DNA of 64,000 nucleotides, taken from Tumebacillus avium (GTDB lineage Bacteria; Bacillota; Bacilli; Tumebacillales; Tumebacillaceae). The stretch is from the NCBI RefSeq assembly GCF_002162355.1, contig NZ_CP021434.1, positions 2,580,501-2,644,500 on the forward strand. Direction: 5' to 3'. Shown here piece by piece: positions 2,509 to 58,594 of the stretch (position 1 is the first letter of the stretch; each line of letters begins with the position of its first letter). The notes beneath the pieces were generated by a model that saw nothing but the letters and a program-made list of their open reading frames with translations, was not told the origin of the DNA and ran no database searches. Made by a program: the position numbers and the translations under genes.

Positions 2509-4848
<2,340 letters not shown>

Positions 4849-44109: not shown

Positions 44110-45432
44110 ATGCCAAAAGGCTCGGAATACGAAAGGATGAACAGCCCGATGAACCAGTTTCAAACCCGTGAGGAACGCGGCATCTACGTTCACGTACTGC
44201 CCACCGACAAGTTCCGCATGAACACGATCGTCGCCACTTTTGCGCAGGAGCTGCGCGAAGACACCGCGACGCCATTGGCTTTGCTTCCCTATCTTTTAAA
44301 CCGAGGGTCTGAGCAGTACCCGACCCCGGAGAAACTGCAACTCGCGCTCGACGAACTGTACGGCGCCTCGATGTCGGCCACGATCGACAAAAAAGGGGAG
44401 CGCCAGGTCGTCGACTTCTCGATGAACGTCCCGAACGAGAAATTCCTCAAACAAGGCGAAGGCCTGTTCCAAAAGGCGCTCGGCATTCTCTCCGACGTGA
44501 TGCTCCGCCCGCAGCTGCAGGACGGCGCTTTTCTGCCCGAGTATGTGCAGGCAGAAAAAGAACAGCACAAAAAGCGCATCGCAGCGGTGATCGACGACAA
44601 GATGAACTATGCGGTCGAGCGCTGCAACGAAGAGATGACCAAAGGCGAACCGTATGCCATCCCGCGTCTCGGCTTCGAAAACAAGATCGACGAGATTACT
44701 CCTCAGTCGCTGTTTGACGTGTACCAGCGCCTGCTGAAGACCGCGCCGATCAACATCTATGTGGTCGGCGACGTGGACACCGATGCGGTGGCAGCGGAGA
44801 TCTTCCGCGTCTTTGACATGGAGCGCGACCCGCAAGCCGCGTTTGCCCCGGTGCAGATTCAGCATGAGACCCGCGCCGTCAAAGATGTGGTCGACCGCCT
44901 CGACATCAATCAAGGGAAGCTGAACGTCGGCGTGTGGACCAATGTGGCCTGGGCGTCTGACGACTATGCGGCGATGCAGGTCTGTAACGGCGTGCTTGGC
45001 GCGTTCCCGCATTCCAAACTGTTCGTCAACGTCCGCGAGAAGCACTCGCTGGCTTACTACTGCATGTCCCGCCTCGACGGGCACAAAGGCATCATCAGCG
45101 TCTTTTCCGGTGTGGAATTTGACAAGATCGATCAGGCGCTGGAGATCATCCGCGAGCAGTTTGACGTGCTCAAAAAAGGCGAGATCACCGCAGAGGAGAT
45201 GGAGTTCACGATCGCAGGTCTGGTCAACGCCTACAAGACGGCGATGGACAATCCGACGTCGATCGCCGATTTCCACCTGAACGGCCTGCTCGCCGGGCGC
45301 GTCCGCACGCGCGAAGAAATGATCGACGCCTTCCAAAAGGTCACCGTCGAAGATGTCGTGCGCGTGGCGCAAGGCCTGCAGTTTGATACGATCTACACGC
45401 TTCGCAATGAGGAGGGGAACCACGGTGCGTGA
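44110..45432 (+). CDS. ymfF: M16-family protein YmfF (YfmF), non-catalytic partner
   Basis: Up to 440 residues. M16 insulinase fold (YVHVLPTDKFRMNTI, LLNRGSEQYPTPEKLQLALDELYGA) but the zinc motif HxxEH is absent, as in the family's regulatory subunit. It pairs with YmfH, encoded 8 nt overlapping downstream. The pair is annotated as associated with EF-P aminopentanol modification in Bacillus; such split M16 pairs (AlbE/AlbF) also process RiPP peptides. The ATG at 44110 has AGGAAG at 6 nt; ATG 44137 and 44149 are alternatives. Confidence 0.85.
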   Translation: MPKGSEYERMNSPMNQFQTREERGIYVHVLPTDKFRMNTIVATFAQELREDTATPLALLPYLLNRGSEQYPTPEKLQLALDELYGASMSATIDKKGERQVVDFSMNVPNEKFLKQGEGLFQKALGILSDVMLRPQLQDGAFLPEYVQAEKEQHKKRIAAVIDDKMNYAVERCNEEMTKGEPYAIPRLGFENKIDEITPQSLFDVYQRLLKTAPINIYVVGDVDTDAVAAEIFRVFDMERDPQAAFAPVQIQHETRAVKDVVDRLDINQGKLNVGVWTNVAWASDDYAAMQVCNGVLGAFPHSKLFVNVREKHSLAYYCMSRLDGHKGIISVFSGVEFDKIDQALEIIREQFDVLKKGEITAEEMEFTIAGLVNAYKTAMDNPTSIADFHLNGLLAGRVRTREEMIDAFQKVTVEDVVRVAQGLQFDTIYTLRNEEGNHGA

Positions 45433-46708
45433 AATTCGCAATGAGCAGCTGAAATTATCCGCTTTTCACGATCAACTCGACAACGGACTCGACGTATACG
45501 TGATTCCGCGGGAAGGATTCAAGCAGACGTACGCGCTGTTCTCCACCAAGTACGGCTCGATCGACCGCGAGTTTGTCGTGCCCGGCGAGTCGGAACCGAC
45601 CATCGTGCCGGACGGCATCGCGCACTTTTTGGAGCACAAGATGTTTGAGCAGGAGAACGGGGAGGACGTGTTCAAGACGTTTGCCCGCTATGGCGCGATG
45701 TCGAACGCTTTTACGTCGTTTGACACGACGGCCTACCTGTTCTCGTCGACCGACAATCTGGACGAGAACCTGACCACGCTGCTGAATTATGTGCAGGAGC
45801 CGTATTTTACGGACGAAAACGTGGAAAAAGAAAAAGGGATCATCGAGCAGGAGATCCGCATGTACGATGACGACCCGAACTGGCGCGTCTATTTCAACCT
45901 GATCGAAGGCATGTACCAAGTGCATCCGATCGCGATCGACATCGCCGGCACGGTGGAGACGATCCAGCAGATCGACAAAGAGACGTTGTACAAGTGCTAC
46001 AATACGTTCTACCACCCGAGCAACATGTCGGTCGTCGTGGTTGGCGACTGCGACCCGGCGCGCGTGCATGCGCTGATCCGTGAAAACCAGGCCGGCAAAA
46101 GCTTCGAACGCCAGCCGGAGATCGAGCGTATCTTCCCGAACGAGCCGACCGAGGTGCGCCGTGCCCGTCATGAAGAGCGCATGCAGATCTCGATGCCGAA
46201 GCTGCAGTTCGGCTACAAGGACATGAGCCGTCCGAACGGCAAGGACATGATCATCAACGAGTACGCGACTTCGGTCGGCCTCGAAGCGTTGATCGGGAAA
46301 AGTTCTGCCCTGTTCAACAAAATGTACGAGGCAGGCATCGTCGACAAGCGTTTTGGCTGGTCGTATGACGCGACTCCGCGTTTTGCCCACTCGCTGTTTG
46401 GCGGCAACTCCAAAGATCCGGACCGCGTGCTGCAGGTGGTCGAGGAAGCGTTTGCCGAAGCGGCGCAAAACGGCATCCCGGAGGCAGACTTCAACCGGGC
46501 GCGCAACAAGATGATCGGCCAGATGGTCTCGACGCTCGATTCGGCGCGCGCCATCGCCCGCTATTTCGCGACCTACACGTTCCGCGATGCCGATTTCTTT
46601 GACATCATCGGCGTGATGGAAAGCCTGACCCTGGAGCAAGTCAACCAGCGTTTGCGCGAACATTTGGCGCCGGAGATGCGCACCGTGTCGATCGTGCTGC
46701 CGAAATAA
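45425..46708 (+). CDS. ymfH: M16-family zinc peptidase YmfH (YfmH)
   Basis: 427 residues. The zinc motif HxxEH is intact as HFLEHKMFE near residue 67, with downstream Glu in EKEKGIIEQEI. GTG start overlaps the ymfF stop; SD GGAGGGG. It should form a heterodimer with YmfF. Closed by its own terminator 95 bp before the MFS gene, so co-regulation with the peptide locus is not shown. Confidence 0.88.
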   Translation: MREIRNEQLKLSAFHDQLDNGLDVYVIPREGFKQTYALFSTKYGSIDREFVVPGESEPTIVPDGIAHFLEHKMFEQENGEDVFKTFARYGAMSNAFTSFDTTAYLFSSTDNLDENLTTLLNYVQEPYFTDENVEKEKGIIEQEIRMYDDDPNWRVYFNLIEGMYQVHPIAIDIAGTVETIQQIDKETLYKCYNTFYHPSNMSVVVVGDCDPARVHALIRENQAGKSFERQPEIERIFPNEPTEVRRARHEERMQISMPKLQFGYKDMSRPNGKDMIINEYATSVGLEALIGKSSALFNKMYEAGIVDKRFGWSYDATPRFAHSLFGGNSKDPDRVLQVVEEAFAEAAQNGIPEADFNRARNKMIGQMVSTLDSARAIARYFATYTFRDADFFDIIGVMESLTLEQVNQRLREHLAPEMRTVSIVLPK

Positions 46709-46803: not shown

Positions 46804-48048
46804 GTGAACGAGCCATCCTTGTTTCGCAATCGCAATTTCACGCTGCTCTATGTCGGGCAACTCGTCTCGCTGTTTGGAGACTGGTTCCGCGGCGTTGTGA
46901 TGATCGTCATCCTCTATGATCTGCATCCGGCCGCTTCGACCGTTGGCGGGATGTTTATCGCTACGATTCTGCCGACCTTGTTTGGCAGCATCTTTGTGGG
47001 TCCGTTTGTCGACCGCTGGAACAAAAAGAACATCATGATCTGGACCAACCTGCTGCGCTTCGTGCTGACGCTGGCCATGGTGTACGGGGTCTATCTGCAG
47101 AACATCTGGGTGCTTTACGGGCTGATCGTTGTCTCCAGTCTCGTCTCTGCGGCCTTCCAACCGGCGCGTACCGCTGTAATTCCGGAGATCGTCGAAGAGA
47201 AGCAGATCGTAAAAGCAACCTCGTCCTTCGCGATTTTGAACTCGGTGACGATGGTCGTGGCCAGCGCCTTGGGCGGGTTTGTCGCCGACTGGGCAGGTCC
47301 GTATCCGATCATGCTGTTTGATGCTTTCTCCTATCTGTTCTCCGCGATCTGCATCGTGCTGATGAAGTATCAGCCGCAGCAAAAGGAGGTCAAGGAGCGT
47401 CCGCCGTACTGGAAGCAGGTGCGGGAGGGCTACGATTATGTTCTCGCCACGCCGCAGCTGGTCGCCGTCTTTTGGATCACCGCCGCCCGCGACTTCGTGC
47501 TTGGCTATGTCTACATCCTGTTTGCGGTCTTCATCCTCGAAGTGGTGCAGACGGGCAATACGGGGATGGGCATCGGCTATTCAACGACAGCAGTTGCGTA
47601 TCTGATCGGAGCCTGGCTGATCAAGTGGTATTTCAAACAGAAGCCGTTTGATGAAAGCGCCTTTTTCAAAATTTTCCTGCCCTGCCACATCATCTACGGG
47701 GTGGGCCTGGGCGTGATGTTCTCGATGACAGGCTGGTATTGGTTCCTCGTCGCGCTTGTCGTGACCTACATCTTCTCGCAAGGCGTAAACATCATCGCCG
47801 AAACCTCGCTGATGACCTACTCGCGCGTGGACAACCGCGGCCGGGTCGTCGCTTCCTGGCTGACCGCTTCACGCCTCGCCTACGCGATCTCCTTGCCGCT
47901 GTTCTCGGTGATCGGCGGGTACATTCCGATCCATGTCGGCGGTTACATTCTGACGGCCGTCTGCGTGATCTCTGCGCTCTGCGTGTATCCGTGGCTGAAA
48001 ACCGCGCTGGGCACTCAAGTGAAAGAAAAATCGACATTGCAAGCGTAA
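46804..48048 (+). CDS. MFS exporter, cassette A
   Basis: 414 residues, twelve membrane segments. NFTLLYVGQLVSLFGDWFR opens the first helix and FVDRWNKKNIMIW is the conserved loop after helix 2, as in MFS macrolide/peptide efflux-type exporters. It is a clear paralogue of the MFS gene at 51752 (shared GPFVDRWNKK, ALGGF, AETSLMTYSR/TETSLMTYSK). GTG start behind AAAGGAG; own terminator downstream. Location at the head of a Trp-peptide/radical SAM locus suggests peptide export or self-protection. Confidence 0.88.
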   Translation: MNEPSLFRNRNFTLLYVGQLVSLFGDWFRGVVMIVILYDLHPAASTVGGMFIATILPTLFGSIFVGPFVDRWNKKNIMIWTNLLRFVLTLAMVYGVYLQNIWVLYGLIVVSSLVSAAFQPARTAVIPEIVEEKQIVKATSSFAILNSVTMVVASALGGFVADWAGPYPIMLFDAFSYLFSAICIVLMKYQPQQKEVKERPPYWKQVREGYDYVLATPQLVAVFWITAARDFVLGYVYILFAVFILEVVQTGNTGMGIGYSTTAVAYLIGAWLIKWYFKQKPFDESAFFKIFLPCHIIYGVGLGVMFSMTGWYWFLVALVVTYIFSQGVNIIAETSLMTYSRVDNRGRVVASWLTASRLAYAISLPLFSVIGGYIPIHVGGYILTAVCVISALCVYPWLKTALGTQVKEKSTLQA

Positions 48049-48080
48049 AGAACCCTTGGCTACTAAGGGTTCTTCTTTTT
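48048..48080 (+). terminator. terminator after MFS A
   Basis: AAGAACCCTT-ggctact-AAGGGTTCTT then TTTTTT; separates the exporter from the peptide gene. Confidence 0.9.
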
Positions 48081-48128
48081 TATTGTGTGTCGAAGTTTGT
48101 AGATTAATATTAAATTACTTATTACCTA

Positions 48129-48157
48129 TTGAAAAGGGAAATTACTAGAAATATAAT
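48129..48157 (+). promoter_or_regulatory. promoter of repeat peptide gene
   Basis: -35 TTGAAA (48129-48134), exactly 17 bp, -10 TATAAT (48152-48157). A near-consensus SigA promoter dedicated to the small peptide gene. Confidence 0.85.
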
Positions 48158-48202
48158 AACTATATGCAAGGCATAGTTTACTAAATAGTGGAGGTGTTAA
48201 AC

Positions 48203-48310
48203 ATGGAAAAGAACTCCTGGATCATCAATGTGGAGAAAAACTCTTGGATCATCAACGAGCGCAACTGGATCGTTGTTCAAGAGCGCAACTGGATCATTGT
48301 TGCAGTTTAA
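48203..48310 (+). CDS. 35-residue four-repeat Trp peptide (candidate RiPP precursor)
   Basis: A 35-codon ORF with SD GGAGGTG and a near-consensus promoter. It is four tandem units, MEKNSWIIN, VEKNSWIIN, ERNWIVVQ and ERNWIIVAV, each with one Trp followed by Ile-Ile/Val. No separate leader is seen. A terminator-like hairpin follows, then the radical SAM gene. The same Trp-Ile-Val signature recurs in three micro-ORFs before the second radical SAM gene. I infer a multi-core substrate for the HemN-like enzyme; a translational-attenuation leader is the main alternative. No known family is recognised. Confidence 0.8.
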   Translation: MEKNSWIINVEKNSWIINERNWIVVQERNWIIVAV

Positions 48311-48333
48311 TTGCTGAGAACTGATCTTTTGCT

Positions 48334-48371
48334 GACGGAGCGGGAACTGTGGTTCTCTCTCCGTCTTTCCT
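48334..48371 (+). terminator. attenuator-like hairpin between peptide and radical SAM gene
   Basis: GACGGAG ... CTCCGTC enclosing GAAC/GTTC, followed by TTTCCTT, a weak T tract. Partial termination would give more peptide mRNA than enzyme mRNA. Confidence 0.7.
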
Positions 48372-48437
48372 TAACGGCGTTAGAACTCATTGAGTTATCA
48401 TATACAAAAAATGGGAATCATAGGAGGCGTTTCTGAA

Positions 48438-49802
48438 ATGTCCAATCACGGAACCAAAGAATTGCCGTTTTCCAGCCTGCCGAAGATGTGGGTCTATCTG
48501 TACCCGTATCTCTCGCGCGGCGAACTGACGGTTGAACATGTGCACCAGTTTTTGCAGCAGGCAGCACCCAACCGTGGCAAGAAGACGTTGTACATGCACG
48601 TGCCGTTCTGTGACACGATCTGCACGTTCTGCCCGTTTGTCCGCTCGACCAACTACGCGGATAAGCTGCAGCCGTACGTGGACGCGCTGGTCAAAGAACT
48701 CAAGACGATCGCAGCCACTCCGCGCATGCAAGGCGTTGCGCTCGACGCGATCTTTGTTGGCGGCGGCACGCCGTCGGTGCTTTCGCCGCAGCAGATTCAC
48801 CTGATCGGCGAGACGATCCACAGCAACTTCAAGCTGAAAGAAGACTATGAGTGGACGTTTGAAGTCGAAGCGAAAAGCGCGACGGAAGACAAGCTGAAAG
48901 CGATGCATGAGGTCGGCGTGAACCGGATGTCGTTTGGCGTTCAGACGTTCAACCCGAAATTCCGCAAGATGTTCAACCTGACCGCATCGCACGATGAGAT
49001 CAAGCGCACCCGCGAACTGGCCGGGAAGTACTTCAAAGGTTTCAACATGGACCTCCTGTACCAGTTGCCGGGCCAGACGATGGAAGAGATCGTGCAGGAT
49101 CTGCAACACGCGGTCGAACTGAACACGACCTCGATCGACGCCTATCCGCTCGATTACACGATCACTTCGAAAGGCTTCCTGCAGTCGATCAAAAACGAGC
49201 GCCTGCCGAAACCGCCGAATGCGTACGAAAAAGTGGCGCAGCAGGAACTGGTCACCAACTTCCTCGTCGAGCATGGCTACAGCCAAGAGTTTATCTACAC
49301 CTTCATCCGCCAAGATGCGGAGCACAGACGTTTCGTCTTTGGCGAAACCTTGTACGGCCACTATGAAGACGAGTGCATCGGCGCAGGGCTCTCCGCGTTC
49401 TCGTACCAGGCCGGCATGGTCTACCGCAACTTCGATACGGTGGAAGAATACATCCGCGCCGTCGATGCAAATGGGCTGGCTGCCGACATCGTCAACGAGT
49501 ACCACGCGAAAGAGAAAGGCCTGATCTACTTCCCGAAACGGATGTCGATCGACACCGACGACATCGATCGTCAGGAGCTCGATGTGCGTTTCTACCAGCT
49601 GCTCGATGAGTTTGAAGCAAAAGGGCTGATCGTGCGTGAAGGCAACAAGCTCAAGCTGACCCGTGAAGGCCAGCCGTGGTACATGAACATGATGATCGAA
49701 ATGCTGCCGGAGCGCACGCGCAACCTGCACGAGACGATCTCCTCCCGACTGAACGAACGGGCGGACTTCACGTTTGACGATGAACTGATCGTCTTCAACT
49801 AA
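48438..49802 (+). CDS. HemN-like radical SAM enzyme, cassette A
   Basis: 454 residues from the ATG behind GGAGG (in-frame ATG 48390 precedes the SD). The 4Fe-4S motif CxxxCxxC is C58-DTI-C62-TF-C65 in HVPFCDTICTFCPF. HemN/HemW-family segments GGGTPSVLSP, GVNRMSFGVQTFNP and NMDLLYQLPGQT follow, then a C-terminal HemN-like domain of about 140 residues. HemN-type class C enzymes include coproporphyrinogen oxidases and methyl or cyclopropane transferases. No heme genes are nearby; the adjacent Trp peptide suggests peptide modification. Confidence 0.88.
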   Translation: MSNHGTKELPFSSLPKMWVYLYPYLSRGELTVEHVHQFLQQAAPNRGKKTLYMHVPFCDTICTFCPFVRSTNYADKLQPYVDALVKELKTIAATPRMQGVALDAIFVGGGTPSVLSPQQIHLIGETIHSNFKLKEDYEWTFEVEAKSATEDKLKAMHEVGVNRMSFGVQTFNPKFRKMFNLTASHDEIKRTRELAGKYFKGFNMDLLYQLPGQTMEEIVQDLQHAVELNTTSIDAYPLDYTITSKGFLQSIKNERLPKPPNAYEKVAQQELVTNFLVEHGYSQEFIYTFIRQDAEHRRFVFGETLYGHYEDECIGAGLSAFSYQAGMVYRNFDTVEEYIRAVDANGLAADIVNEYHAKEKGLIYFPKRMSIDTDDIDRQELDVRFYQLLDEFEAKGLIVREGNKLKLTREGQPWYMNMMIEMLPERTRNLHETISSRLNERADFTFDDELIVFN

Positions 49803-49814
49803 AAACTTTCAACC

Positions 49815-49843
49815 AACCGGACTGAATACAGTCCGGTTTTTTT
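49815..49843 (+). terminator. terminator after radical SAM A
   Basis: AACCGGACT-gaatac-AGTCCGGTT then TTTTT. Confidence 0.92.
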
Positions 49844-49975
49844 AATGTCCGATTACAACAAGCATTTCAAAGGACAAAACAAAATGATTTTCAGTTAATC
49901 ATTGAAATCACGTGTAATAATTTGTTTTACCCTTAAATATCTATATACCGTAAGCAAGACGAGGAGGTGTGCGGC
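49844..49975 (+). promoter_or_regulatory. AT-rich region before micro-ORF cluster
   Basis: 132 bp with no ORF. It holds an imperfect inverted repeat TGATTTTCA/TTGAAATCA (49885-49910) and AT-rich hexamers (TATATA 49942), so the cluster B promoter and a regulator site probably lie here. No hexamer pair with ideal spacing is found. Confidence 0.45.
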
Positions 49976-50008
49976 GTGAAACAATGGATCATCATCGCGG
50001 CTGAGTAG
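49976..50008 (+). CDS. micro-ORF B1, Trp peptide of 10 residues
   Basis: GTG start 8 nt after GAGGAGGTG, an ideal SD. It encodes (M)KQWIIIAAE, then TAG. The Trp-Ile-Ile-Ile core matches the units of the 35-residue peptide at 48203. Too short for gene finders. Candidate leaderless precursor of the radical SAM enzyme at 50300. Confidence 0.6.
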   Translation: MKQWIIIAAE

Positions 50009-50059
50009 TCCGGTCTTATGTATCGTTTGGAAGGAAAACGCTTGCGAGAGGGGGTGCCA

Positions 50060-50116
50060 ATGATGCAAAAATGGCTGCCGGTTGTGGAGTGGATTTCCGT
50101 TGTAGTTGTTGAGTAG
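50060..50116 (+). CDS. micro-ORF B2, Trp peptide of 18 residues
   Basis: ATG behind GAGAGGGGGTG encodes MMQKWLPVVEWISVVVVE, two Trp units in one ORF (QKWLPVV and EWISVVVV). An in-frame ATG at 50018 would add MYRLEGKRLREGVP, a possible short leader, but has a weak SD. Same signature and setting as B1 and B3. Confidence 0.6.
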   Translation: MMQKWLPVVEWISVVVVE

Positions 50117-50183
50117 TTACTGGTGTGGATTGCTCCGACAAGGTTTTTGCTGCGCCACAGGTACTCGGAGAGGGGGCGGAACC

Positions 50184-50213
50184 ATGCGCGAGTGGATCGT
50201 AGTAGCTGCTTAA
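50184..50213 (+). CDS. micro-ORF B3, Trp peptide of 9 residues
   Basis: ATG 7 nt after AGAGGGGG encodes MREWIVVAA, then TAA. It is the shortest of the set and nearly equals the last unit of the 35-residue peptide (ERNWIIVAV). Followed by a hairpin and the radical SAM gene. Confidence 0.6.
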   Translation: MREWIVVAA

Positions 50214-50241
50214 CATAACCTGGCACATTTGTTCACATACC

Positions 50242-50269
50242 GGCTGACAGGGGGCGACCTCTGTCAGCC
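50242..50269 (+). terminator. hairpin between micro-ORFs and radical SAM B
   Basis: Perfect 9-bp stem GGCTGACAG / CTGTCAGCC with a 10-base loop and no T tract. It may be an attenuator or an mRNA-stability/processing hairpin, in the same position as the hairpin in cassette A. Confidence 0.6.
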
Positions 50270-50299
50270 CCTGACCACGAAAAGGGGGTACTTACAAAG

Positions 50300-51661
50300 A
50301 TGTCGCAGCACAACGCATTGCCCTACAAAAAGCTGCCTAACATGTGGAACTATCTCTACCCGTTCATTCAAGATGGGCCAGAACCGGTGGAGACCGTTCG
50401 TCAATTTTTGAACTCGACGCGCACGCCGCTGCCCGGAACGAAATCGCTGTATGTGCACATTCCGTTCTGTGACACGATCTGCACGTTCTGTCCGTTCATC
50501 CGCTCGACGAACTACCAAGACAAACTGCAGCCCTACGTGGATGCGCTGCTGAAAGAGTTGAAAGCCATCGCCAGCACGCCGTATGTCAAGCAGATGAAGC
50601 TTGATGCAGTCTATGTCGGCGGCGGCACGCCTTCCGTTTTGTCTCCGAAGATGATCGAAGACCTCTGCACGACGATCCGCGAGAATTTCAATCTCAAGGA
50701 TGGAGTCGAGTGGAGCTTCGAAGTCGAAGCGAAGAGCGCTTCCGAAGACAAGCTGAAAGCGATGGCGGCGAACGGTGTCAACCGGATCTCCTTCGGTGTG
50801 CAGACGTTTAACCCGTACTACCGCAAGCTGTTTAACCTGACCGCATCGCTCGACGAGATCAAGCAGACCCGCGACCTCGCCGACAAGTACTTCAAAGCGT
50901 ACAACATGGACCTCCTGTACCAACTGCCTGGCCAGACGATCGAGCAGTTGCATGAGGACCTGGAGAACGTGCGTCAACTGTCCACCACCACCGTTGACGT
51001 CTATCCGCTGGAGTACCTCGTCACCTCCAAAGGCTTCCTGAACATGATCAAAGACGGCAAAGTACCGGAGCCGCCGAAAGCGGACGACAAAGTGCTGCAG
51101 CACCAATTCGTCAACTCCTACCTGCTCAACCACGGGTACGAGCAGACGCACATCTACACCTTCGCCAAAGGCGATGCCAAGTACAAAGACTTCAAATTCG
51201 GCGCGACCATCTACGGCCGTTACGAAGACGAGTACATCGGCTGCGGCCAGGCGGCTGCTTCCTACCTGAGTGGCATGTCGCACATGAACGTCGTGAAGAC
51301 CGACGAGTACATCCGCGCGGTCGAAAACGGCACTTTGCCGGTCATGCGCGCGCAAGAGTACGAGGCGAAAGAAAAAGGCCTGATCTACTTCGCGAAACAC
51401 ATGAAAGTCAGCCTCGAGTACCTGCGTCAGCACAACCTGCCGTCCGAGTACTGGGAGAAGATCGAGAAGCACGAAAAAATGGGTCTGGTCGTGCAGGAAG
51501 ACGGCTTGCTCAAGCTGACCGAGCTCGGCAAGATCTGGTACATGCACGTCATGATCGACCTGCTGCCGGAACAGCAGAAGAAGACGTACGACACCTACGT
51601 CGAAGTGCTGCAGAAAGACAAAGATTTCATTGAAGACACCGAGCTTACTGTCATTCAATAA
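50300..51661 (+). CDS. HemN-like radical SAM enzyme, cassette B
   Basis: 453 residues, a close paralogue of the enzyme at 48438 and colinear with it from MSQHNALPYKKLPNMW on. 4Fe-4S cysteines are C57, C61 and C64 in HIPFCDTICTFCPF; GGGTPSVLSP, GVNRISFGVQTFNP and NMDLLYQLPGQT are shared. SD AAAGGGGGT. It follows three Trp micro-ORFs and precedes an MFS exporter. The two enzymes likely act on the related peptide sets; reaction unknown (methylation, cyclopropanation, oxidation or cross-linking at Trp are options). Confidence 0.88.
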   Translation: MSQHNALPYKKLPNMWNYLYPFIQDGPEPVETVRQFLNSTRTPLPGTKSLYVHIPFCDTICTFCPFIRSTNYQDKLQPYVDALLKELKAIASTPYVKQMKLDAVYVGGGTPSVLSPKMIEDLCTTIRENFNLKDGVEWSFEVEAKSASEDKLKAMAANGVNRISFGVQTFNPYYRKLFNLTASLDEIKQTRDLADKYFKAYNMDLLYQLPGQTIEQLHEDLENVRQLSTTTVDVYPLEYLVTSKGFLNMIKDGKVPEPPKADDKVLQHQFVNSYLLNHGYEQTHIYTFAKGDAKYKDFKFGATIYGRYEDEYIGCGQAAASYLSGMSHMNVVKTDEYIRAVENGTLPVMRAQEYEAKEKGLIYFAKHMKVSLEYLRQHNLPSEYWEKIEKHEKMGLVVQEDGLLKLTELGKIWYMHVMIDLLPEQQKKTYDTYVEVLQKDKDFIEDTELTVIQ

Positions 51662-51751: not shown

Positions 51752-53011
51752 ATGTCCACAGCAACAACGGAGAAATTGCCGTCTCCGTTTAAAAACCGCA
51801 ATTTTACATTGCTTTATTACGGTCAGATGATCTCGCTGTTTGGCGATTGGTTTAAAACGATCGCCCTGATCTCCGTCATTTATGCGATTGTGCCCAATGC
51901 GGCATCGATCGGCGGCCTGTTTATCGCCAGCGTCCTGCCGGTGCTGTTCGGCGGCATCGTCATGGGTCCGTTCGTCGACCGCTGGAACAAAAAGCACCTG
52001 ATGATCTGGGTGGACATCCTGCGCGTGTTCTCGACGCTTGGGATCATCGCAGGCGTGATGCTTGCGAACATCTGGGTGATCTATGTCTGCATCGCGTTTG
52101 GCGCGTTTGCTTCGGCTGCGTTTGCGCCGGCGAGAACGTCGATGATCCCGGAGATTTTGAAAGAGAAAAACCTGATCGCGGCGACCTCGTCGTTTGCGCT
52201 GCTCACTTCGACCACGATGGTGCTGGCGAGCGCCTTGGGCGGCTTTTTGGCCCAGTGGATCGGGGCGGTGAACATTCTGTATTTCGATGCGTTCTCCTAT
52301 GTGGTGTCGGCAGTGTTTATCGGGCTGATGAAGTATCAGCCGTTGGAGAAGCCGGTGAACAAGCGTCCGCCTTATCTGCAGCAGGTGAAAGAGGGCATCG
52401 ATTTCGTGAAAAAATGCCCGCAGCTGGTCGGCGTGTTCTGGCTGCAATTCTTCCGCGACTTCTGCCTCGGCTTCATCTACATCCTGTTCCCGCTGTATGT
52501 GCTCAATGAGCTGAAGGCAGGAGATGCCGGCGTCGGCATCGGGTATTCGGTGACGGCGGTGGCGTATATCATCGGCGCGTTTTTGCTGAAGCAGTACTTT
52601 AAGAAGCGCAAGTTTGATGACAGCTCGTACTTCAAGATCTACTTCCCGGCCAATATGTTGTACGGGATCGGGCTTGGCTGCATGTTTATCATCCACAACT
52701 GGTATTTGTTCTTTGCGGTGATGCTGCTCGCGAACATCTTCCAGTCCAAGGTCAACGTGATCACGGAGACCTCGCTGATGACCTACTCCAAGCCGGAACT
52801 GCGCGGCCGCGTCGTGGCGACCTGGCTGTCGATGTCCCGTCTGGCCTACGGAATCTCGCTCCCGCTGTTCTCGGCGATCGGCGGATTCATCCCCAGCGCC
52901 ATCGGCGGCTGGATGCTGGCCGCGATCTGCGTAGTGTCGGCAGCCGTGCTGATGCTGTGGCTGAAAGGGAAGCTGCAGAGCGGTCAGGTGGCGGAAGAGC
53001 AGGCGGTGTAA
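51752..53011 (+). CDS. MFS exporter, cassette B
   Basis: 419 residues, twelve membrane segments, paralogous to the exporter at 46804 (FVDRWNKKHLMIW, ITETSLMTYSKPELRGRVVATW). It opens NFTLLYYGQMISLFGDWFK. ATG behind AAGGGGGG. The locus therefore has two exporters flanking two radical SAM enzymes, all on one strand. Substrate unknown; export of the modified Trp peptides is the simplest inference. Confidence 0.88.
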   Translation: MSTATTEKLPSPFKNRNFTLLYYGQMISLFGDWFKTIALISVIYAIVPNAASIGGLFIASVLPVLFGGIVMGPFVDRWNKKHLMIWVDILRVFSTLGIIAGVMLANIWVIYVCIAFGAFASAAFAPARTSMIPEILKEKNLIAATSSFALLTSTTMVLASALGGFLAQWIGAVNILYFDAFSYVVSAVFIGLMKYQPLEKPVNKRPPYLQQVKEGIDFVKKCPQLVGVFWLQFFRDFCLGFIYILFPLYVLNELKAGDAGVGIGYSVTAVAYIIGAFLLKQYFKKRKFDDSSYFKIYFPANMLYGIGLGCMFIIHNWYLFFAVMLLANIFQSKVNVITETSLMTYSKPELRGRVVATWLSMSRLAYGISLPLFSAIGGFIPSAIGGWMLAAICVVSAAVLMLWLKGKLQSGQVAEEQAV

Positions 53012-58440: not shown

Positions 58441-58490
58441 GAAGTAGACCTCCTTGGCCGGGAAGCTCAAGGGAGGTCTACTTCTTTTTT
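58441..58490 (+). terminator. plus-strand terminator overlapping toxin 3' end
   Basis: 13-bp stem GAAGTAGACCTCC / GGAGGTCTACTTC then TTTTTT. It would end a plus-strand RNA antisense to the toxin mRNA tail, as in type I antitoxin RNAs such as RatA. Confidence 0.75.
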
Positions 58491-58594
58491 AGTAGGTTAA
58501 GTATGGCGATGACCACAGACAGCACACCGAATATGACCGCAGCAATTAGTGAGCCAAATCCAATCATCACAGTGAGCCATTGGTAATCCGTCAT
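58478..58594 (-). CDS. Hol-Tox-like type I toxin, 38 residues
   Basis: MTDYQWLTVMIGFGSLIAAV then a second hydrophobic run and NLLKKK at the end; 38 residues with one membrane helix and a basic tail, matching the pattern of the putative holin-like toxin family (TxpA/BsrG-like; FGSLI motif). SD AAGGGGGTGA precedes the ATG. Too short for gene finders. Convergent terminators on both strands suggest an antisense antitoxin overlapping the 3' end. It sits between the two CRISPR arrays. Confidence 0.78.
   Translation of the reverse strand: MTDYQWLTVMIGFGSLIAAVIFGVLSVVIAILNLLKKK

Follow-up and report, generated by a model that had tools for sequence, protein, structure and literature searches.

Unannotated leaderless tryptophan-repeat peptides linked to a HemN-like radical-SAM enzyme and an MFS transporter in Tumebacillus avium and its relatives

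What purpose could be served by a 35-residue peptide composed of one short tryptophan-bearing unit repeated four times? The gene in question, micro-ORF 1 (48203-48310, plus strand), lies in a stretch of 64,000 nucleotides of Tumebacillus avium (contig NZ_CP021434.1, positions 2,580,501 to 2,644,500), which is the window analyzed here and to which all coordinates refer unless another locus is named. It encodes MEKNSWIINVEKNSWIINERNWIVVQERNWIIVAV followed by a stop codon, that is, the units MEKNSWIIN, VEKNSWIIN, ERNWIVVQ, and ERNWIIVAV. An earlier sequence-only reading had proposed a four-unit peptide ORF driven by its own near-consensus promoter and GGAGGTG, and both proposals hold: the frame is kept in two congeners (G001 and G002), the sigma-70-type promoter TTGAAA-N17-TATAAT (48129-48157, plus strand) matches the consensus at 11 of 12 positions, and the Shine-Dalgarno (SD) sequence GGAGGTG (48190-48196, plus strand) is read directly. 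In the alignment of the window with both congeners, TATTGAAAA, the ATAAT of the -10 box, and GGAGGTG are unchanged, and the -35 block of this first cassette is also invariant. The sole longer in-frame reading would start at the GTG at 48188, adding five codons at the N terminus, with an in-frame stop immediately before it. Moreover, a terminator-like hairpin (48048-48074) parts micro-ORF 1 from the upstream MFS gene, which fits a separate transcription unit. Within the ORF, units 1 and 2 differ over EKNSWIIN by four synonymous and no non-synonymous changes, whereas the only difference between units 3 and 4 is a single non-synonymous change, which is not enough for a verdict.

The sequence-only reading overlooked the neighborhood of this gene, its conserved relatives, and three further micro-ORFs at 49976-50213. 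Taken together, the locus is a cassette in duplicate, each copy consisting of one or more peptide genes, a radical-SAM gene, and an MFS gene, all on the plus strand. In cassette 1, the gene of a HemN/HutW-like radical-SAM enzyme (48438-49802) starts 127 bases 3' of micro-ORF 1; it carries the CxxxCxxC motif (PFCDTICTFC), and its model is closest to HemN (1olt). Profile matches identify the MFS transporter 1 (46804-48048) as EntS/Mef-like. Micro-ORFs 2 to 4, each with its own strong SD, sit between the two radical-SAM genes: micro-ORF 2, (V)KQWIIIAAE with a GTG start (49976-50008; SD AGGAGGTG at 49962-49969), micro-ORF 3, MMQKWLPVVEWISVVVVE with two units (50060-50116; SD GAGGGGGTG), and micro-ORF 4, MREWIVVAA (50184-50213; SD GAGAGGGGG), which is nearly identical in G001 and G002. 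They are followed by radical-SAM gene 2 (50300-51661), whose HemN/HutW-like product is 55% identical to enzyme 1, and by the EntS/Mef-like MFS transporter 2 (51752-53011), 56% identical to MFS 1.

How widespread is this arrangement? We call group A the close radical-SAM enzymes and group B the distant ones, with 29-36% identity. A homologue at E <=1e-60 is present in 7 of 61 genomes (the window's own plus 60 relatives), all within the window's family. In the class sample, 11 of 398 genomes match at 1e-75, ten with group A and one (G339) with group B only; the group-A genomes outside the window's family were G204, G240, and G363. The phylum sample of 398 genomes returned the window's own genome alone, and within the orders to which G363 and G204 belong, the only matches were those already known (1 of 42 and 2 of 39 genomes). 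A plasmid collection added Cytobacillus kochii NZ_CP022984, whose enzyme is 45% identical. Group A thus amounts to 14 radical-SAM genes in 11 genomes or records from at least three families, with 31 micro-ORFs alongside; an MFS gene neighbors 14 of the 14 enzyme genes, and micro-ORFs are found in every cluster. Also, a protein scan of the genome contigs found only distant HemN relatives (identity <=31%) at eight loci; next to these matches, no micro-ORF with an SD carried the motif or ended in Trp, and at one distant-HemN locus (L017), a Trp-ending ORF lies about 1.8 kb away from it.

The peptides themselves are unannotated, 9-35 residues long (8-10 for the shorter members), and were collected with a filter requiring an SD, 6-40 residues, and W[ILVF]x[VILNH]. 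Variation in unit number, which the sequence-only reading had proposed as a check, is present, the orthologues of micro-ORF 1 carrying four units in the window's genome (G000), three in G001 (MEKNWIIAVERNWIVVQERNWIIVAA), and two in G002 (MSWIIHERNWIIIEN). In G002, this peptide is followed by seven ORFs in a row that pass the regular expression, for example, MIKEWLTVVEA (twice) and MREWIIVAA; the counts exclude two other readings there, MREWLSIV... (continuing in the same frame into MREWILVGVTIE) and MRAWMVSSTCVCCADAI, which either do not pass the SD/motif filter or share sequence with an ORF already counted. G005 encodes MREWIVVVEN, MREWIIVVEN, MREWIVIVEN, and MRKDWLVVV, and in G003, G004, and G006, W-I-A/S-V-E units occur, mostly several per ORF. 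Outside the window's family, G363 encodes MSNEWISVKNEWIAV, present twice, G204 MRQVNEWVAL, G240 MRQSTEWFTV, and the C. kochii plasmid MKKEWVALKNEWVAL, directly 5' of its radical-SAM gene.

Could such short ORFs arise by chance? In the window together with nine loci (186 kb), 85 micro-ORFs are preceded by an SD; 31 of these bear the motif, and 30 of the 31 lie at radical-SAM clusters. The sole motif ORF outside them, at 58478-58594 of the window (minus strand), encodes an SD-preceded hydrophobic peptide of 38 residues, MTDYQWLTVMIGFGSLIAAVIFGVLSVVIAILNLLKKK, which resembles putative holin-like toxins. As a chance control, twelve order-2 Markov sequences of 64 kb gave three motif ORFs altogether. 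However, the filter was fixed once ten of the eleven loci had been read, and a fair test therefore needs sequence fetched later: in the C. kochii locus (L086), the filter returned one motif ORF, MKKEWVALKNEWVAL, the expected one, which is missing from the PLSDB gene table, and in the later-fetched distant relatives (L087, L088, L089, and L093), it returned none. A further 30 genome places, 91 kb in total, contained 33 SD micro-ORFs and one motif ORF, a sample that is not neutral because the places were chosen via a pattern containing SD-ATG-TGGATH. A search for orphan arrays with GGAGG-ATG-TGGATH hit at least 16-42 places per genome, mostly ordinary genes, and the pattern GARTGGATHDYHGTNG occurred 24 times across 10 genomes, with 10 of these occurrences inside known clusters by coordinates.

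The conserved core of the 31 group-A ORFs is narrow. Over their 54 tryptophans, position +1 is always I, L, V, or F (40, 10, 3, and 1), position +3 is V, I, or L in 50 cases (41, 6, and 3), and position -1 is E in 26 and N in 7. In 31 of 31 ORFs, a Trp stands 2-6 residues from the start, so a classical leader is absent; the lack of a leader remarked on in the sequence-only reading is therefore a conserved trait and no annotation error. Selection acts on this core as well. Across four pairs of orthologous peptides from G000 and G001 (for ORF 1, the last two units only), 15 of 33 synonymous sites differ versus 5 of 117 non-synonymous sites (Fisher p 5e-8), the excess of synonymous change that the sequence-only reading had proposed looking for; for the radical-SAM gene, the figures are 106 of 300 and 60 of 1059. 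The ORF 2 pair alone runs opposite, with no synonymous and two non-synonymous differences (Ile to Val). The micro-ORFs are under purifying selection, and they encode a real and conserved family of unannotated, leaderless repeat peptides whose genes accompany those of a HemN-like radical-SAM enzyme and of an MFS transporter.

Do these ORFs act through their translation rather than their product? Trp codons in short, SD-preceded ORFs 5' of an enzyme gene, with a stem-loop between, are what would be expected of Trp-sensing attenuators of the trpL type controlling the radical-SAM gene. For example, a strong stem-loop, GGCTGACAG...CTGTCAGCC (50242-50269, plus strand), separates micro-ORF 4 from radical-SAM gene 2, and a further one (48334-48365, plus strand), weak over its whole region, lies between micro-ORF 1 and radical-SAM gene 1. 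When seven stretches from the last micro-ORF to the radical-SAM gene were folded, five gave z < -2.6, namely, cassette 2 of the window (-2.9), G001 and G002 (-2.8 and -3.9 in the two congeners), G204, and G240; G363 gave -1.8 and cassette 1 of the window -1.0, which is not exceptional. A further stretch, the eighth, closes the G005 array; its z was -4.5, with a T-run at its end. No T-run follows the stem of cassette 2, so partial termination or mRNA protection is no more than a suggestion. Nonetheless, in G003, G004, and G006, the micro-ORFs sit 3' of the radical-SAM and MFS genes on the opposite strand, which excludes attenuation there, and in G005, they come after the MFS gene. Moreover, the residues after Trp are conserved too, a locus holds as many as eight ORFs, and no Rfam match was found over 47900-50500 with E up to 1. 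On the gene order of these four genomes and the Rfam result, attenuation was rejected, and we regard it as extremely improbable for the family.

What the enzyme does is less easily answered. Its best curated match is HutW, and orthology with HutW/ChuW, HemN, or HemW was rejected because the NCBIfam scores fall under the cut-offs (221.7 of 400, 156 of 325, and 153.3 of 205.4 bits, respectively). The Pfam HemN_C match is likewise under its cut-off, so the reaction is not readable from the family. An AlphaFold model built with 16 sequences (pLDDT 87) places the enzyme in the HemN fold: in Foldseek, the nearest solved structure is HemN 1olt (TM 0.74/0.77), the rest being far behind, with TsrM, a Trp methylase, second at a low TM of 0.33. 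A profile search of the PDB matched only 1olt (138 bits) and the class C methylase NocN 9p2u (77 bits). All 16 enzymes compared share Y52, C58, C62, and C65, and Y52 aligns with HemN Tyr56, so that a HemN-like fold, CxxxCxxC, and this tyrosine, all features of class C radical-SAM methylases, are present. In PMC12871812, the Tyr56 equivalent is tied to binding of the second SAM (SAM-II), class C enzymes are described as acting on sp2 carbons, and the substrate of NosN/NocN is given as 3-methyl-2-indolic acid. A class-C-like reaction at the Trp indole is, on these grounds, a tentative and somewhat doubtful assignment, and it is the weakest step of our argument.

Since the micro-ORFs adjoin a HemN-like radical-SAM enzyme and an exporter, they are most likely the raw material of a leaderless modified-peptide pathway. 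The features of a RiPP system found here are an SD-bearing precursor conserved at the protein level and a linked plausible modifying enzyme and exporter; the division into leader and core is absent in 31 of 31 ORFs. The RiPP multi-core suggestion of the sequence-only reading thus gains support from the neighboring HemN-like radical-SAM and MFS genes and from the conserved relatives. Probably, then, the micro-ORFs encode leaderless, often multi-core precursors of the RiPP type; the HemN-like enzyme would modify their Trp motif, and the product would be exported. We infer that the enzyme acts on the micro-ORF peptides, with Trp as the site. In such a pathway, the HemN-like (class-C-like, two-SAM) enzyme would recognize (E/N)-W-(I/L)-x-V directly, with no leader, and would modify each copy of the motif, most likely at the Trp indole, by a one-carbon transfer or formation of a C-C bond; the adjacent MFS protein would export the product. 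Output might be raised by repetition, either of units in an ORF, of ORFs in tandem, or of the whole cassette, and the stem-loop that separates the peptide genes from the enzyme gene may hold the precursor above the enzyme. It speaks against this reading that no peptidase is conserved across all clusters.

Alternatively, the peptide could serve as a throwaway scaffold, with a small molecule derived from Trp being excised from it as PQQ is cut from PqqA. The repeats supply many near-identical W-I/L-x-V units, in group-B relatives Trp stands at the extreme C terminus, and a pair of M16 peptidase genes lies directly 5' of the locus (44110-46708, plus strand) and is adjacent also in G001, G002, and G005. 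However, the pair was not seen adjoining the cluster at the other loci, and it resembles the housekeeping pair ymfF/ymfH; being adjacent in four genomes only, the M16 peptidases were treated as neighbors rather than pathway parts. Moreover, the conserved +1 and +3 residues would be needless for a product made of Trp only. We therefore consider the scaffold explanation unlikely.

The distant enzymes of group B also adjoin Trp peptides, among them MRDIVWDIVW, PIIW repeats, 50-54-mers ending in SEW, and a 24-mer ending in VAW. In G003, G005, G006, and G339 (L032, L033, L034, and L055), conserved peptides of 50-54 residues ending in LLSEW or VVSEW are found together with an MFS gene, and in G339, two B12-type radical-SAM genes and an SBP_bac_5 gene join the run; G005 has, in addition, the group-B peptides MENQPIIWKNVEPIIWKNAAEPIIWNNEVAPIIW and MERNILIIW. 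The Glaesserella plasmid pD74 (L089) carries MENAIELFVSRKNEEHYDFNNVAW, speD, radical-SAM, P450, and MFS genes, and its 24-residue peptide, ending in NNVAW, is followed by a terminator-like hairpin. On a Klebsiella plasmid (L087), a HemN-like radical-SAM gene occurs with cytochrome P450 and MFS genes, an ISL3 transposase gene lying between the last two; no candidate peptide was seen 5' of the enzyme gene, where the sequence resembles another insertion element. The Xenorhabdus plasmid pXT141 (L093) has an enzyme annotated as HutW, whose gene lies between an annotated ORF, SpeD-like as judged by eye, and speF, and a peptide-like ORF, MESAMELFEV..., whose start resembles that of the Glaesserella peptide. 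Read by eye, this ORF has no Trp at its end, which counts against a simple Trp rule; the Klebsiella and Xenorhabdus copies thus lend the precursor reading only mixed support.

A group-B locus also bears on the proposal, made in the sequence-only reading, that the peptides resemble streptococcal-type signals. On a plasmid of Alicyclobacillus sp. TC (L088), a distant relative, the micro-ORF MRDIVWDIVW has a regulator of the HTH+TPR type (RRNPP-like) divergently upstream (3222-4439 of that locus, minus strand), making a modified quorum signal possible there. Applied to the whole family, the proposal would be that the MFS protein exports leaderless signaling peptides, unmodified or modified, akin to the LCP/SIP of RopB systems, and that a receptor in the cytosol senses them. 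The shorter members (8-10 residues, hydrophobic, leaderless usORFs with a strong SD) match the description of LCP in PMC10518010. The LCP/SIP-RopB systems, however, are defined by an adjacent RopB/Rgg receptor, and the Rgg C-terminal model TIGR01716 matched none of the 10 cluster genomes, while the positive control, Lactococcus lactis, was matched; for these genomes, Rgg signaling was rejected. Also, no HTH+TPR gene appeared among the flanking genes spot-checked in the window or group-A loci, and signaling leaves the constant radical-SAM partner and the multi-unit ORFs unexplained. The idea thus fails in its Rgg form and is possible for a modified leaderless signal; as a general explanation, we hold it to be very unlikely.

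Returning to leaderless modified precursors, how do they compare with known systems? The biarylitides, RiPPs made from a pentapeptide by a P450, are alike in several ways described in PMC13417212: their tiny precursor gene has an SD and escaped annotation, there is hardly any leader (two residues), and a neighboring redox enzyme modifies aromatic residues. They differ in having a single core of five residues, aromatic at positions 3 and 5, together with a P450 that cross-links (same source), whereas here peptides of 9-35 residues accompany a HemN-like radical SAM in group A, and no P450 is found among the annotated or Pfam-checked neighbors of the group-A clusters; the group-B copies on the Klebsiella and Glaesserella plasmids do have a P450 in addition. 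The terms radical SAM and MFS have 0 occurrences in the text of PMC13417212. Microcin C (MccA heptapeptide, MccB, and MccC) shares, according to PMC6495379, a seven-residue precursor used whole, an export pump gene, and a transcription terminator or hairpin between mccA and mccB; it differs in its single unit and in C-terminal nucleotide addition by a dedicated enzyme, without radical SAM. Given these near-leaderless precedents, the absent leader argues for a leaderless type and not against a RiPP.

Other systems resemble the enzyme or the repeats. In TVG peptides (TvgA/TvgB), repeated short units are each modified by a radical-SAM enzyme, although TvgB is an rSAM-SPASM protein that forms cyclopropylglycine on the Val of TVGG, that is, another family and another motif (PMC9062424). 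The class C methylases NosN/NocN, TbtI, and C10P are HemN-like and use two SAM, and some class C methylases act on peptide precursors and an indolic substrate (PMC12871812 and PMC11285071); NocN differs in that its own precursor has a 37-residue leader, as given in PMC12871812.

Our literature search found no account of this peptide-enzyme family, subscription papers being mostly outside its coverage. Whether the family is a new RiPP class is evenly balanced in our judgment. Such a class would combine leader-free, iterative recognition of the four-to-five-residue motif (E)W(I/L)xV, a dose scaled by repeats of motif, ORF, and operon, Trp-ending peptides in group B, and, for at least one relative, possibly a modified quorum signal, within an enzyme superfamily that also occurs with P450, SpeD, or B12 enzymes in other Bacillota and on gammaproteobacterial plasmids. 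Radical-SAM peptide enzymes are usually found through leader-bearing precursors; since leaderless peptides of 9-35 residues escape gene callers and RiPP miners, a HemN-like branch, currently named only radical SAM or HutW, may hide peptide enzymes. If (E)W(I/L)xV truly suffices, the enzyme could be used as it stands, with no leader, to modify Trp in short peptides, and the array organization would show how precursor dose evolves where the core is everything.

Finally, some genes recur beside the clusters. A DinB-family gene lies 3' of the MFS gene in the four group-A clusters beyond the window's family (L052, L053, L054, and L086; in L054, the call comes from sequence likeness only), and a DUF4760-like gene takes its place in L027, L028, and L030 (Pfam-checked in L028 only). 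In G001, an extra radical-SAM gene lies near the cluster (L025, 2488-4014, minus strand).
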